From: a virus
DNA: 27,819 bases
Reading direction: 5' to 3' (one strand)
IMG/VR virus record: IMGVR_UViG_3300003629_000011
Span: 1 to 27,819 of that record
A program made the position numbers and the translations under genes. This document shows, one piece after another, positions 6,806 through 16,768 of the stretch (position 1 is its first letter; each line of letters starts with the position of its first letter). The notes beneath the pieces are model-generated. The model saw only the letters and a list, made by a program, of their open reading frames with translations, was not told the DNA's origin and did no database searches.

Positions 6806-9800
6806 TTAGATACCTCCATCACGTAGTCGCTTCGTGCGGTTGGCTTCTTCGATAGCCTCTTGGACAAGCCCCTTGACACGAGCCTTCTCCTCGGGCTTCA
6901 TATTAAAGTCACCGAAGTTGTAGTTGTTCTGTTCGTATGTGTTGATGACGGTCTGTTGACCACCAGCCATATCATCCTGTCCACGGCTTTCGTCATCGTC
7001 CATAATGTCGCCAGCGTTTTCCCGAGCTTCGGCGGCGCTTGCTTCGGCTCCAGCAAGCCTTTCTGAAGCGGGCGAATCTCCTTCGCCGCCGAACGAAAAG
7101 TCGCTGAGTTTTTCGATGTTTACGAATGGAACTTTATTAATCATATCAATGAAACCATTGATAAGACCAATGATAAAGTTGACCATTCCTTCAACCATAT
7201 TCTTCACAAACTTCACTACTGAATCAACCATAGACATTAGCGCATCCCACGCTTTAATAAGGTTCTGAACGGCAGCGTTGATTCCATCAATTACTTGCTG
7301 TACAGGACCAAGCTTCATAAACCAGTTAATGGCTTTACCGATAAGGTCAATCAACCAAACAAATCCATCAATTAATAGAATTGTTGGTATATAAAGTGCT
7401 TGGTAAATCAAGTCAGCTATGAAACTTAATGGTCCAATGAGTGAGCTAAAGAACTCGGCTGTAACATCTACTAAGAATCCAAGCACATCTCCAATCATCC
7501 CCAAAATACTGAAAGCTTCTTCTCCGTTTTCTGAAGCCCATCCAAGCTGTTCTGCAAGGTAACCAAAGGCATCTGTAAACGGCCAAATAAATGCTCCAAG
7601 TGCTTCAAGAATGCTGATAAATACGTTCCAAATTGGAACTCCCATCTTGATAAGAGAATCGAATACAGCTTGTGCAGCGCTCTTTAGTCCTTGGAACGCA
7701 CTCTGTGCGCCGCCAATAATACCATCCATATTGGAAAGGATTCCGGCAAGAATACCAGCGAAGGCTACGATAGCAGCGATAGCCTTGAGGATGAGACCAA
7801 TTCCAATCGAGTTGAGGGCAAAGCTCAGTGCAGCGACGGCGGCAGCGGCGAGTGTCGACGTAGATGCAACTCCCAAGAACGTCAGTGCTGTTGCGGCCAT
7901 CGTTGAGATTACTGGGATACCGGCTGCCGAAACAGTTGACAGTGAAGCAGCGAGCGTTGTGTTCATCAGGGATGCCGTTGTTGCTCCTGTAATGTATCCC
8001 CACATCGTCGCGATAAGGCCTCCGAGTGCGACGATTGCTCGAATCGGGGCACGGATAAGTCCTTTCATCGACGTTGCGAACGCGCTCGTGCTTATCGTAG
8101 ACGGAATCACTGCGGAGATGTACTTGTAGAGCCGTCCGGTCATACTACTAATAACATTTCTCACACCGGACGCCTTCCGTCCGACAAGCGCCATTGCATC
8201 GTCATAGTTTTCAACGTCAGAAACAGCGGAAGCGAATCCGTCAGCAGAGCTTCTAATGGCACCACCGGCTCTTGTGATTGGCGAGACAGCAGTTCCGAGG
8301 GCACTCTTTACGCTGTCCATACTCGGAAGGAATCCACCAAGTATTCCTTTGAACCTACCGAATGCACCAGCAGTATCATCAGCAGACGACGCCAGTACAG
8401 GCAGATTATTTGCGGCCTCATCTGCACTGTTTGTGACGGCAGGGAGAGCGCCTGCAACCTCATCCGAACCGGATGCCAGTGCAGACAGGCTGTTGCTTGC
8501 TGAACTAATCGACGGAATAAGACCACTTAGACTGAAGGAGAGATTGCTTATCTTCCCTCGGAGGTCACCGAACATTCCACCGATACTACCGAATATACCT
8601 AACGAGCCACTGAATCGGCTTGTTAGTCTACCGAATGCTCCACGGAGTGACGAGAACGATGGAATCATCGACGCGATTCGGCTTCTGAGTCTGCCGAAAA
8701 TGCTTCCGGTTTCGTCAGCAGACGAAGCCAGAACAGGCAGACTACTTGCTGCTTCGTCTGCGCCGCTCGTCACAGCAGGGAGAGCGCCTGCAACTTCATC
8801 AGAGCCGGATGCCAGTGCGGGTAGCGAGTCAGTCACACCACCCAGTCCACCGAATCCACCAAGGCTGAATCCGCTAAAGCTAAAGCCTCTGAGTCGCTCA
8901 CCGAATCCGCTCAGTGCGTCGGTAGCATCACCCATCGAGGTCGGGATTTTCGACGCCATATCGCTGGCGAAGGATGCAAGCTCAGGGCTGATGATTTGGA
9001 GACCGGACTTGATGTTGCCCATAGCACGACTGAAGTTACCAAGACCGGGGACAGCACTTATTGCTGCCTCACCAACGCCAGTGAACACACTCACGACACC
9101 AATTCCGCGTGCCGCGAGTGACTGTAGCCCTTTCCCGACAGCCGATAGAGCGTTACTTGCGAGATTGCGTGCCCGGCGTCCGACTCCAGCAAACGTTTCA
9201 CCGAGGCTACTGAGCTTTTGGCGAGCTTGGGCAGTACGTGTGGTTACCCTCGTCTCCGTAACAGCCTCGGCCTCGAAGTCACCTTCCAGAAGTGTTTTCT
9301 TGGCTTCGTCAACATCTTTGAAAGCCTCTGCGGAGCCACCCATATCAGGGTGAACATCTTTCACCATACTTCTGTATGCAGATTCTATGGTTTCCTTCGA
9401 CGCATCTGCGTCCTGAATGTCGAGTGTTTTCAGTGCCTCCATCTTCATTTCCGGCGCTGGAATAGTGGTCTCAGTAGTGGTCTCCACTCTGTTGAGACTC
9501 GCAAGTCGCTCGCTTATTGCTTCACCAACACCACCGACTGCTCCTGATGCAGCACTCGTGAAGCTGGTATTTCGCATTCTGTCGGCAGCAGCCTCGAAGA
9601 ATCCGCCAACGATTCCCGGCATTTCACCCATCTTCTGAGTGACAGTACTCAAGACACCTTCGAAGACTGTACCAACTCGTGTTGGTAGGCTAATGTTTCT
9701 GATTCTGTCAGCGGCAGCACCGAATCCATCTGTAACAGCAGTCGCAACATCGCCCATCTTGCTTCGTGCTTTTCCTGCTGCATCAGAGAGAGTGTCTGAA

Positions 9801-11623
9801 ATGCTACTTTTAATACCTTGGTATCTCTCTCTAAGTCCATCGAGTGGTTGTGTTTTGACTCCTTCACCGCTGAAGTCTTCGGTAATGTCGAGTGACGAAA
9901 TCTGCGCCATCGACTTCTGTGCGGTTTCAGATGAGGCTTCAGCAAGCTCGTCAATCATTCCAAACCGCTGTGCCAGAAGTCCAAGTGCCTCTTGAGCGCC
10001 TGTCAGGTGGAGTGCTGCAAGGACGGAATTAAATGCACCGAGAGCCGTCCGTGAGGTCATAATAGCAGTACCGAGTCCACCAAAGAAGCGCCCCATACGG
10101 ATACCAAGACTGAGCGCACCGCTCATTGCTCGGCTGAGAACGAGGAATGCTGTAGCGGCAGCAATTACCTCATTCGGTAGCATATTAAGAATATCGGCTA
10201 CCATCCGAATAGCTTCGAGGACGCCAGCAATAGCTGGAAGAATGCCCTCGAATGCGGCAATACCAACTTCAGTAATCGCTCGGAAGAAGTTCAAGAAGGA
10301 ACGACCGAACTCTCCGAGGAATCCAAGGAACTCCATTCCTTCCGTGTTGAAGAACTCAAGTGCCGCTGGTAACTTCTCCATAAACCACACGAAGAAGTCT
10401 GCAATAACTGGAAGGAACGCTTCTACAGTGCTTTCGAGTGCAAGTAGTATTTCGTTTGCGTTATCGAAGAACGCTGTCGAAAGTTCACCAAGGAAGGCGT
10501 CGAGTTCTCCACGGAGCCTATTAGCAAGCTGTGCAAAGAGGTTCAGTGCAGATGCAAGTCCTGTAATTGCATCTTTGAACATCTCCACGTTTTCTTGATT
10601 AGCTAATGGCTCTAAGGCCCGCATAATAGTTCCACGGACCTCTTTCATTACACCTTCCATCGCTTCCCACGTATTCTTGTACTCGTCGTTGGTCTGTGCC
10701 ATTTGACGAGCCATAGCCAACATTCCACCACCATAAATGGCGGCGAGTGCTGAACCAGCAGTTACAGCGGCGGTTGCGAGACCACCGAGTGCTGCGGCAA
10801 GCGAACCTGTCACAGCAGCAAGCTGTGGGATTTGGACAGCAGCTTGTCGGAGAGCGAAGTTGAACGGACCAAGGTTAAAGCTTGTGGCTGCGAATGCGCC
10901 GCTCAGTCCTGCCATTTCGAGAGCAGTTTGTGACGCCTCATCACCTGTTTCCTCAATAGAGTCTTTGAGGTCGTTCAAGGCTTCTTCGTCAATTCGAGCA
11001 GCGACAGCGTTCGCCAACTGTGCCGAGGTCATACTTTCAATATTCATCTCGGCAAAGTCTATCGACTCCGCAAGCTGTAACTCGCTATTACGGAGGTCGT
11101 CGGCAAGCTCTTCAGCACTGTCTGCTGCACGCGCCATCCGGTAGAGCGCACCAATTTCTCCCTGTAGCGCGTCCTGTGTTGCCTTTGCTGTACCACTGAG
11201 CATCTGGTTCGCTCTGGAAACGGCGTCCTTGGCTTCTTCAAGACTCCCGGCACTCATTACGGCTTCTCTGAAGGTCTGTGCCTCTTCAGCCAGCGAGCGC
11301 TCTGCTGACTGGTTGGCTTTGTCCATTGCCATCTGCGCGTTCCGAACGTTTTCACCGGCATCAGCAAAGTCTTCAGCAGACATTGCAGCTTGCCGTGCTT
11401 CAACGCTCACACCTTCGAATCCTTCCTGAGCTTCCTGCAATACAGCAGACGTTTCGGCCATTGCATTGCGTACTTCATCCGCTGCATCCTCAGTAGAATC
11501 CATAGCTTCGCCACTAACGCCAGCAGATTCAGCTACCTCGTCCAACGCATCAGCTACACTCGCCAGTGACTCAGAAATAGTTTCCTGAGCGCTTAGAATA
11601 GCAGTAAGAGCCTTCTCAGCCAT
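6806..11623 (-). CDS. Tape measure protein with an embedded J-domain
   Basis: A 1605-aa protein, the largest in the window, placed after the frameshifted chaperone as tape measures are. Residues 1-230 are Ala/Glu-rich coiled coil. Hydrophobic stretches lie at about 254-300, 1245-1296 ('FLGVASTSTLAAAAVAALSF', 'IGLILKAIAAIVAFAGILAG') and 1391-1434; tape measures use such segments to cross the host membrane during DNA entry. Residues 729-780 resemble a DnaJ J-domain: 'MEALKTLDIQDAD', helix 'SKETIESAYRSMVKD', then V-HPD-MGG (HPD at 758-760) and 'SAEAFKDVDEAKKTLLEGD'. Two copies of a Gly/Ser/Ala/Asp module (933-968 and 1045-1080) suggest internal duplication. The C-terminus is Asn/Gln/Lys-rich and helical ('MKPEEKARVKGLVQEAIEEA'). 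The start has no clear ribosome binding site and lies 12 nt after the frameshift extension. Confidence 0.85.
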   Translation of the reverse strand: MAEKALTAILSAQETISESLASVADALDEVAESAGVSGEAMDSTEDAADEVRNAMAETSAVLQEAQEGFEGVSVEARQAAMSAEDFADAGENVRNAQMAMDKANQSAERSLAEEAQTFREAVMSAGSLEEAKDAVSRANQMLSGTAKATQDALQGEIGALYRMARAADSAEELADDLRNSELQLAESIDFAEMNIESMTSAQLANAVAARIDEEALNDLKDSIEETGDEASQTALEMAGLSGAFAATSFNLGPFNFALRQAAVQIPQLAAVTGSLAAALGGLATAAVTAGSALAAIYGGGMLAMARQMAQTNDEYKNTWEAMEGVMKEVRGTIMRALEPLANQENVEMFKDAITGLASALNLFAQLANRLRGELDAFLGELSTAFFDNANEILLALESTVEAFLPVIADFFVWFMEKLPAALEFFNTEGMEFLGFLGEFGRSFLNFFRAITEVGIAAFEGILPAIAGVLEAIRMVADILNMLPNEVIAAATAFLVLSRAMSGALSLGIRMGRFFGGLGTAIMTSRTALGAFNSVLAALHLTGAQEALGLLAQRFGMIDELAEASSETAQKSMAQISSLDITEDFSGEGVKTQPLDGLRERYQGIKSSISDTLSDAAGKARSKMGDVATAVTDGFGAAADRIRNISLPTRVGTVFEGVLSTVTQKMGEMPGIVGGFFEAAADRMRNTSFTSAASGAVGGVGEAISERLASLNRVETTTETTIPAPEMKMEALKTLDIQDADASKETIESAYRSMVKDVHPDMGGSAEAFKDVDEAKKTLLEGDFEAEAVTETRVTTRTAQARQKLSSLGETFAGVGRRARNLASNALSAVGKGLQSLAARGIGVVSVFTGVGEAAISAVPGLGNFSRAMGNIKSGLQIISPELASFASDMASKIPTSMGDATDALSGFGERLRGFSFSGFSLGGFGGLGGVTDSLPALASGSDEVAGALPAVTSGADEAASSLPVLASSADETGSIFGRLRSRIASMIPSFSSLRGAFGRLTSRFSGSLGIFGSIGGMFGDLRGKISNLSFSLSGLIPSISSASNSLSALASGSDEVAGALPAVTNSADEAANNLPVLASSADDTAGAFGRFKGILGGFLPSMDSVKSALGTAVSPITRAGGAIRSSADGFASAVSDVENYDDAMALVGRKASGVRNVISSMTGRLYKYISAVIPSTISTSAFATSMKGLIRAPIRAIVALGGLIATMWGYITGATTASLMNTTLAASLSTVSAAGIPVISTMAATALTFLGVASTSTLAAAAVAALSFALNSIGIGLILKAIAAIVAFAGILAGILSNMDGIIGGAQSAFQGLKSAAQAVFDSLIKMGVPIWNVFISILEALGAFIWPFTDAFGYLAEQLGWASENGEEAFSILGMIGDVLGFLVDVTAEFFSSLIGPLSFIADLIYQALYIPTILLIDGFVWLIDLIGKAINWFMKLGPVQQVIDGINAAVQNLIKAWDALMSMVDSVVKFVKNMVEGMVNFIIGLINGFIDMINKVPFVNIEKLSDFSFGGEGDSPASERLAGAEASAAEARENAGDIMDDDESRGQDDMAGGQQTVINTYEQNNYNFGDFNMKPEEKARVKGLVQEAIEEANRTKRLRDGGI
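8382..8824 (-). repeat. Duplicated segment within the tape measure gene
   Basis: The segment around 8382-8490 is repeated at 8718-8824, offset 336 nt (112 codons). Both encode LASGSDEVAGALPAV, a variable spacer, and LPVLASSAD. The plus-strand block AGGGAGAGCGCCTGCAAC is identical in both copies. Confidence 0.75.
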
Positions 11624-11635
11624 ATGATATAGTCC

Positions 11636-12342
11636 CTATAGTTGGTGCTTCAGTTGTTGTTTGTTTTGCTCTGCCTCTACTTTCTCTTGCTTCATCTTCT
11701 CGCGCTCTTGCTCGGCCAAGAAGCCGAACTTCAACTGACCATCAGTTAGGTCACCCATAAAGGCTTCGCGCTCAGTGGTTGGATGCCTGCAATCTTCGTC
11801 AGGGAAGCCGGGTGTCTCGTAGCAGTTACAGACGTACTCAGTTACAGAGTACGATTTTCCGTTTGTGACTGCTGAGAGGAGCGACTGCCCTAACTGCGTT
11901 CGTGAAAACTTTGGACAGCGCCCCCGTTCTCAAGGGAGTACGTAAGTACTTCGCTGCCAAGTTCGAACAGCATTTCGAAGCCGAAGTCTTCGATAATGTC
12001 ACGCATCTGCGTGGTAGAAAGGCCGTCGTGGTGAAGCGAGTTAGAACAGAGATTTTCGAACGCTTCAACCATCTCCGGTGAAACTTGCGTCGTTCCACCG
12101 GCTTCTCGGGCCATCTCCTCGGCCTCTTCAGGGTCAATGTCTTCTTCCTCAGCATCAACCGCTTGGAATAGTTCTTCAGGCATCGAGCTAATCGCTTCGG
12201 CAAGGTCTTCCTTGCTTACAACGTGTAGTTCGACTCCTGTAAGTAGAGCGCCGTCGTCGCGCTCGAACTCGATTTCCTTCGATGCTCCAGTACCCTTGAT
12301 GGTACGGTCGTAGAACTCTTCTGCATCAACTTCTTGTGTCAT
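11636..12342 (-). CDS. Tail assembly chaperone, long form made by -1 frameshift
   Basis: The -1 frame is open from 11929 to a TAG at 11636-11638. It overlaps the last codons of the chaperone gene by 40 nt and has no plausible start of its own. A -1 slip in 11890-11929 gives a fusion of about 235 aa, adding about 89 residues: 'SRTQLGQSLLSAVTNGKSYS', 'VTEYVCNCYETPGFPDEDCR', a Met-Gly-Asp-Leu region and a charged Lys/Glu/Gln helix. This is the lambda G-GT arrangement, conserved in tailed phages directly upstream of the tape measure. Possible slip sites in the zero frame are T-TTT (AGT TTT CAC) and G-GGC in the run of five G. The extension carries a CxC...CxH pattern that could bind metal. Its stop is 12 nt before the tape measure start. 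Confidence 0.72.
11890..12342 (-). CDS. Tail assembly chaperone, short form
   Basis: A 150-aa acidic, mainly helical protein: 'KEIEFERDDGALLTGVELHV' (beta), then 'SKEDLAEAISSMPEELFQAV', an Asp/Glu linker and 'SPEMVEAFENLCSNSLHHDG', 'MRDIIEDFGFEMLFELGSEV'. Position immediately before the tape measure gene, length, and a -1 frame extension identify it as the G-type chaperone that coats the tape measure during tube polymerisation. No sequence motif proves it. The ribosome binding site is weak (GGGACTGATTAACT-ATG), so it may be translated less than the tube gene. It is separated from the tube gene by 122 nt filled with hairpins. Confidence 0.7.
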   Translation of the reverse strand: MTQEVDAEEFYDRTIKGTGASKEIEFERDDGALLTGVELHVVSKEDLAEAISSMPEELFQAVDAEEEDIDPEEAEEMAREAGGTTQVSPEMVEAFENLCSNSLHHDGLSTTQMRDIIEDFGFEMLFELGSEVLTYSLENGGAVQSFHERS

Positions 12343-15892: not shown

Positions 15893-15911
15893 TGGATAAC
15901 GAAGTTATCCA
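15893..15911 (-). terminator. Hairpin overlapping the major capsid stop codon
   Basis: TGGATAAC-GAA-GTTATCCA is a perfect 8-bp inverted repeat with a 3-nt loop. On the coding strand its 5' arm contains the last Gly codon and the TAA stop of the capsid gene. No U run follows, so it may stabilise or process the mRNA 3' end rather than terminate transcription. Confidence 0.55.
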
Positions 15912-16768
15912 GTGATGGCGACGGCAGCATCTTGGAAGATTGCCTTCCACGAGCGCCGCGTGTAGACCTGAACGTTGTCGGCCATCCGCTCGTTGTCTTC
16001 GTAACGGTTGGACGCCATTCCGGTACGAGTAAGCTCGTAGCCGAAGTAGTCAGTGTCTACGATGAACGCACCGGGACCGGAGTCGTCACCGAACTCAGAA
16101 CCGATGGCGTGAGCGTTGTCAACGACAACGTTGAGGCCAGCAATCTGACCAATCTCACCGCTTGCAACAACGTCGTCCCCGCTTTCCGTAGCGCGGTTGA
16201 AGTTGTTGTCAGTGAGGAGGTCACCGTAGGCCTCAAGGTCGAGGATGAGCATATCCGGCGAGTAGTCTCCGCGACGGACCTCAATCATACCGTCACGAAT
16301 GTCACCGAACGTCATCGTTCCGTTGTCGTCACCAGCGTACCCAACGTCCGTGGAGCCAGTACCGTAGTCGGCGTCCGGCTTCACGTTGTCACGAAGCTCT
16401 ACGAAAGCCTCGAAGTTAAGGCGCTCGTCCATAGCACGAGCAAGCTGGTCAACTTCTCGGGCCTTCATATCGAGAAGACCGTCCTGCTGTGCCTCCATCG
16501 TGATGGAGATTTCGCCAGCGAACTTGTCGAACGTGACGAGAACCTCCTTCACAGTCGTCTGGTGACGCGGAACCTCAGCGCCCTCGGGGACAACCTGCAC
16601 ACGTCCCATATCGTCTTGGGCGATGTTGAATTGGTAGGCGTTACTACCAATGCTGGAAGCGTCAATCTGTGCGAAGGCGTCTCGGTAAATGAGGTCCTCC
16701 TCCACAAATTCTTCTACCGTATCACGGACGAAATCCTCAGTGATAACGTCCTGAACTTTAAGTGTCAT
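15905..16768 (-). CDS. Major capsid protein, HK97 fold
   Basis: A 287-aa protein. 'EDLIYRDAFAQIDASSIGSN' and 'VVPEGAEVPRHQTTVKEVLV' are followed by 'TFDKFAGEISITMEAQQDGL' and the long spine helix 'DMKAREVDQLARAMDERLNF'. The P-domain and A-domain region contains 'GDIRDGMIEVRRGDYSPDML', 'ILDLEAYGDLL' and 'GEIGQIAGLNVVVDNAHAIG', with the closing 'MADNVQVYTRRSWKAIFQDA'. These are standard HK97-fold elements. No long N-terminal delta domain is seen, consistent with the separate scaffold encoded upstream. The ribosome binding site GAGGTGAATAAAT-ATG is strong and is almost identical to that of the preceding gene, suggesting matched high translation. Confidence 0.88.
   Translation of the reverse strand: MTLKVQDVITEDFVRDTVEEFVEEDLIYRDAFAQIDASSIGSNAYQFNIAQDDMGRVQVVPEGAEVPRHQTTVKEVLVTFDKFAGEISITMEAQQDGLLDMKAREVDQLARAMDERLNFEAFVELRDNVKPDADYGTGSTDVGYAGDDNGTMTFGDIRDGMIEVRRGDYSPDMLILDLEAYGDLLTDNNFNRATESGDDVVASGEIGQIAGLNVVVDNAHAIGSEFGDDSGPGAFIVDTDYFGYELTRTGMASNRYEDNERMADNVQVYTRRSWKAIFQDAAVAITG

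Follow-up and report, generated by a model that had tools for sequence, protein, structure and literature searches.

J-domains act through Hsp70, and tape measure proteins (TMPs) are known both to need chaperones and to be ejected. Hydrophobic regions of the TP901-1 TMP have been linked to chaperone recruitment (PMC5099701), and HFTV1, an archaeal virus, has a hexameric TMP in the 36 Å lumen of its tube; the C-terminal end sits at the baseplate, and the protein is gone after ejection (PMC12494034). For jumbo phages, it has been predicted that their DnaJ proteins draw host HSP70 into folding and assembly (PMC7824862). Our literature search, whose scope left out most subscription journals, returned phage J-proteins and phage TMPs, none of them joined in one protein. 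A built-in co-chaperone was not described in the literature searched, and the initial annotation of this DNA was right in knowing of no established TMP function of this kind, as we found no published precedent. The parts of the protein reported here are of known kinds, and the combination of J-domain and TMP is new.

The tape measure gene and its J-domain

The virus record analysed here, taken at its full length of 27,819 bases (the window), appears to be the head-tail module of a haloarchaeal myovirus. Its genes, all minus-strand, encode terminase, portal, major head protein, neck proteins, tail sheath, tube, tail-assembly chaperone, TMP and baseplate proteins. We infer the haloarchaeal origin from the relatives of the virus; its sheath is 56% identical to that of HGTV-1 (Halogranum tailed virus 1). 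The TMP matched the PHROG tail length tape measure families phrog_58 (E = 7e-22) and phrog_1272 (E = 1e-18), and also phrog_5493, and its gene is a long open reading frame, immediately preceded by the frameshifting G/GT tail-assembly chaperone, followed by the baseplate genes and syntenic with HGTV-1 gp21 (Table 1). The chaperone, a 150-aa protein with an overlapping -1-frame extension upstream of the TMP, has the same layout as the lambda G/GT tail-assembly chaperone and a weak match to phrog_19808. Its G/T overlap (FH.../FSRT.LGQ) is common to the window, HGTV-1 and a second virus described below (IMG/VR contig 3300007631_000007, hereafter L029/L034), and a TTTTC run in this overlap is a possible slip site. 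Because the usual TMP chaperone is already present, the J-domain would be an addition to it.

Table 1 Features of the tape measure locus (positions in the window; residues of the TMP)
Feature	Position	Strand	Basis
Tape measure protein, 1605 aa, carrier of the J-domain	6806..11623	-	PHROG matches and gene position
G/GT-like tail-assembly chaperone	11636..12342	-	G ORF of 150 aa (11890-12342) and overlapping -1-frame T extension, end 11636
J-domain, residues 722-782	9278..9460	-	Pfam PF00226, AlphaFold2, Foldseek, L029 conservation
Helix I (predicted), residues 724-733	9425..9454	-	AlphaFold2
Helix II (predicted), residues 743-757, KETIESAYRSMVKDV	9353..9397	-	AlphaFold2
HPD tripeptide, residues 758-760, loop between helices II and III	9344..9352	-	Translation, AlphaFold2
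Helix III (predicted), residues 765-780, AEAFKDVDEAKKTLLE	9284..9331	-	AlphaFold2
Conserved, partly hydrophobic segment directly downstream of the J-domain, about residues 800-884, contains ...KGLQSLAARGIGVVSVFTGVGEA...	8970..9225	-	L029 identity, hydrophobicity

The TMP has hydrophobic regions at about residues 453-504 and 1234-1432, and the J-domain lies between them in a variable linker. The conserved segment 3' of the domain has a hydrophobic peak at residues 840-858. Farther along, an internal repeat, LPALASGSDEVAGALPAV...LPVLASSAD, occurs in two copies at about residues 934-966 and 1046-1078, and is repeated in the L029 protein too.

The initial annotation had placed a J-domain at positions 9284-9439, which correspond exactly to TMP residues 729-780 with HPD at 758-760, and its quoted strings for helix II, the GG turn and helix III are correct. 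The core of that assignment stood and its boundaries did not: helix I, at about residues 724-733, had been missed, so the domain is nearer 722-782. The excised segment gave a significant match to the Pfam DnaJ profile PF00226 (33.3 bits, E = 5e-8; curated cut-off 27.8), the full TMP scored 27.8 bits, exactly at the cut-off, and a genome search with the same profile gave 33.2 bits (E = 1.5e-9). Four PHROG families of phage proteins also match the segment. Using a profile of the segment and nine other J-domains, we obtained 69 distinct PDB sequences at E < 0.001, the listed ones being J-domain proteins. The best PDB sequence match by phmmer, histone H2B, was discarded as spurious, being a match to an HPD string.

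AlphaFold2, run on a 10-row alignment, predicted three helices, the second and third of which form the hairpin expected of the fold and are joined by the HPD-containing loop (block pLDDT 78-88), and a model from the two TMP rows alone had the same three helices. Helices I-III were predicted; helix IV, which is variable in J-domains, was not seen in the predicted structure. When the model was compared with the PDB using Foldseek, the first ~37 matches were J-domains, led by Tim14 (2guz_A, probability 1.00, TM 0.75 by target); the J-domain of DnaJ in complex with DnaK (5nro) matched with TM 0.62 and an rmsd of 2.1 Å. None of the Foldseek E-values fell below 0.001, because the query is short (~60 residues). 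Judged by profile matches and predicted fold, residues 722-782 are a real J-domain, beyond chance resemblance.

Haloarchaeal J-domains used for comparison have three to four basic residues in helix II, versus two in the window and one in L029, and the basic patch that would face Hsp70 is therefore probably weak; the lysine at position 755, almost always present in J-domains, is absent from L029. Both features would fit a domain that kept the J fold and lost its Hsp70 work, and whose remaining role in the TMP is structural, as a spacer or an oligomer contact, and J-like domains without HPD do exist, as in BJ1 gp05 with HGD. We consider this unlikely: HPD is intact in both TMPs despite the diverged linker, and a pure spacer needs no HPD.

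A second virus and the distribution of the domain

Scanning with the J-domain alignment identified a second TMP with the domain in L029/L034, a contig from another metagenome that shares synteny with the window across 17 genes. This TMP is 1800 aa long, its J-domain is at the same place as in the window and scored 30.3-35.6 bits against PF00226, and the HPD that the initial annotation had proposed to follow among related TMPs is kept. Proteins shared by the two viruses are about 35-64% identical, the head protein excepted. The major head protein (window 15905-16768; L034:2275-3138) stands out at 91% identity between these viruses, which suggests head gene exchange or unusually strong constraint.

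This second contig also bears on a very different account of the locus, namely chance resemblance or a chimeric assembly joining a host J-protein to a TMP. HPD alone is short, and a related contig, IMGVR_UViG_3300003635_000023, near-identical to the window (99.8% over 14 kb), ends before the J-domain. The profile and fold matches are nonetheless significant, the frame is uninterrupted, and the account is refuted by the same architecture with syntenic flanking genes in an independent contig; we regard it as scarcely credible.

Where aligned, the two TMPs are 49% identical, with about 23% identity at residues 551-700, about 64% at 722-782 and 66-70% at 801-900. HPD, GGSAEAFK and the lead-in TTIPAPE are unchanged, and the P and D codons of HPD differ synonymously. 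Across residues 712-800, 31 of the 55 identical residues use a different codon, which points to selection on the protein and not to recent shared ancestry. The J-domain was somewhat better conserved than the TMP mean (p = 0.013, two sequences), and, with positions defined from other J-domains, columns conserved in those domains were identical between the two TMPs in 19/25 cases compared with 14/29 elsewhere (one-sided p = 0.035). The latter test replaced one on a hand-picked core (p = 4e-5), which was partly circular because its positions had been chosen with the alignment known. Conservation tests on two sequences are modest, and more weight lies on the retention of HPD in a protein that has diverged. 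The same domain at the same place in a second, clearly different virus suggests that it functions when the tail is assembled or when it is emptied.

The domain is not general among halovirus TMPs; on the sequences searched, it is so far a trait of one sub-lineage of haloarchaeal myoviruses, with two members known. Wide spread was not found across HGTV-1, related contigs, reference haloviruses and proviral TMPs. The nearest other TMPs, from HGTV-1 and contigs L006, L007 and L008, are 983-1095 aa long and have no J-domain, so that the proteins with the domain (1605 and 1800 aa) are 1.5-1.8 times longer. Among 18 reference halovirus genomes, no J-domain was found in TMPs, and it occurred only in standalone reading frames of HCTV-2, BJ1 and HJTV-4; that of HJTV-4 (L012:3959-4177) is unannotated and encodes a J-domain with HPD. 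A profile of the two TMPs applied to 394 Halobacteria genomes recovered five proviral TMP-like proteins, all without the domain, and its J-domain part otherwise matched host J-proteins outside TMPs; of these matches, it was the long-frame cases that were read singly. Candidates rejected on reading were a host protein that contains repeats and restriction-like segments (G383), a host J-ferredoxin protein behind a spurious frame (G255) and three regions with the J match in a short separate ORF (G309, G158 and G348). In 50,697 phage records, some of them unannotated, none of the J-domain matches coincided with an annotated tape measure feature. Viral contigs scanned with the J-module and with the two-TMP alignment yielded no third J-domain TMP, and scans with P0002 alone and baseplate J (viral contigs) and with the TMP alignment (genome contigs) returned nothing useful.

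Other J-domain proteins were met in these searches. A family of ~200-aa proteins (L010, L011, L015, L025, L030 and L033) starts with LxWPxGWxRT and has a C-terminal J-domain; it is carried by haloviruses, cyanophages and alphaproteobacterial phages, and the BJ1 member is the one with HGD for HPD. A 1941-aa phage protein (L035:8523-14345, IMG/VR 3300028666_000603) has a J-domain at 38.3 bits, a weak M90-like metallopeptidase match with a HEIGH motif and an HNH-like C-terminal stretch. By sequence it resembles a polyvalent, possibly injected protein; the paper on polyvalent proteins mentions no DnaJ domain (PMC5512222). In Rhizobium phage RHph_N65, a 222-aa J-domain protein (MN988536.1 27999-28667, L103) is annotated 'putative protease/scaffold', which looks wrong; it was dismissed as a second structural case, as it sits among replication-region genes.

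Possible roles of the J-domain

Hsp70 is encoded in 5/5 haloarchaeal genomes tested, in agreement with the earlier expectation of a host partner, and the suggestion that DnaK is recruited, whether during assembly or once the TMP has been ejected, is plausible. Our preferred reading, to which we give about even weight, is that the J-domain recruits host DnaK in cis to the very long, partly hydrophobic TMP before tube closure, beside G/GT. The HPD loop would dock on host Hsp70 (DnaK) and trigger ATP hydrolysis, and DnaK would then be loaded in cis onto the nascent TMP. Its likely client would be the hydrophobic segments of the TMP, the conserved one just 3' of the J-domain included. DnaK would thereby keep the unusually long protein soluble and extended until the tail-tube protein polymerises around it, and the action of the J-domain would add to that of the ordinary G/GT chaperone.

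Hsp70 should be too large for a 36 Å lumen, so a J-domain in mid-TMP would be within reach of DnaK only while the tube is still open or once the TMP has been ejected. We favour assembly because the TMPs with the domain are longer, a conserved hydrophobic segment follows it and the TP901-1 precedent links such regions to chaperones. Also in keeping with this reading are the action of the phage J-protein Rki on host DnaK (PMC3486835) and the prediction for jumbo-phage DnaJ proteins (PMC7824862). Against assembly stand the apparently weak basic patch of helix II and the two known members, as well as the presence of G/GT and the fact that relatives lacking the domain still build tails.

The main alternative is that the domain acts after ejection, which we consider possible but less likely. 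The TMP would exit the tail first and span or enter the host membrane, and the J-domain would reach the cytoplasm and recruit DnaK, which might assist in pulling in or unfolding the TMP or in genome entry, or might be diverted early in infection. Emptied HFTV1 virions are without TMP (PMC12494034), and the domain lies between the two hydrophobic regions, the arrangement in which the intervening TP901-1 stretch was predicted to be cytoplasmic (PMC5099701). Nevertheless, the membrane placement of the window TMP is putative, and the TP901-1 authors doubted a membrane role of the second hydrophobic region (PMC5099701). The best fold match, Tim14, also among the best sequence matches, is a J-protein of the mitochondrial import motor, but this likeness is one of fold, not function. 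Two other phage proteins fit action in the infected cell: Rki, a J-protein that acts on host DnaK (PMC3486835), and the 1941-aa protein above, a second giant phage protein whose J-domain, zincin-like and HNH-like segments give it the look of an injected multidomain protein. On the other hand, some six J-domains would need to travel through a narrow tube, which would require staggering or unfolding, and the few basic residues in helix II call for caution here as they do for assembly. By analogy with Tim14, a J-domain carried in the tail could leave with the genome and make host DnaK at the entry site a pulling motor for TMP or DNA, a speculative extension that we think improbable. The sequence separates neither the assembly role nor the post-ejection role from the other.

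Through a J-domain in its TMP, a virus would make tail assembly or genome entry depend on host Hsp70. The domain offers a one-motif handle, HPD, on how so long and hydrophobic a TMP is kept workable and how it is helped across the host membrane.

Comparison with known systems

The closest described relatives are HGTV-1 and contigs L006, L007 and L008, whose sheath and baseplate J proteins are 52-57% and 54-55% identical to those of the window. Their TMPs (gp21 in HGTV-1) have the same gene place and family, and their N- and C-terminal parts can be aligned with that of the window at about 25% identity, but they differ in their shorter length and in lacking the J-domain. Standalone J-proteins, namely HCTV-2 gp5, BJ1 gp05, Ssp-JY39 and phrog_9210, have J-domains 31-46% identical locally to that of the TMP. 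Unlike it, they are about 200 aa long, with the J-domain at the C-terminus and their genes in early or accessory regions, and by position they are not virion proteins.

Tim14/Pam18 (PDB 2guz) is the closest fold match, but is a subunit of the mitochondrial import motor, and no evolutionary or functional link to it is claimed. Rki of phage RB43 is, like the TMP segment, a phage-encoded J-domain, and differs in being small, standalone and expressed early, with no tail protein part (PMC3486835). As cited in PMC12494034, the TMP of TM4 carries a peptidoglycan hydrolase motif and so likewise has a functional domain inside a TMP; accessory domains of the TM4 type are cell-wall enzymes, whereas the domain in the window TMP is of the co-chaperone type.
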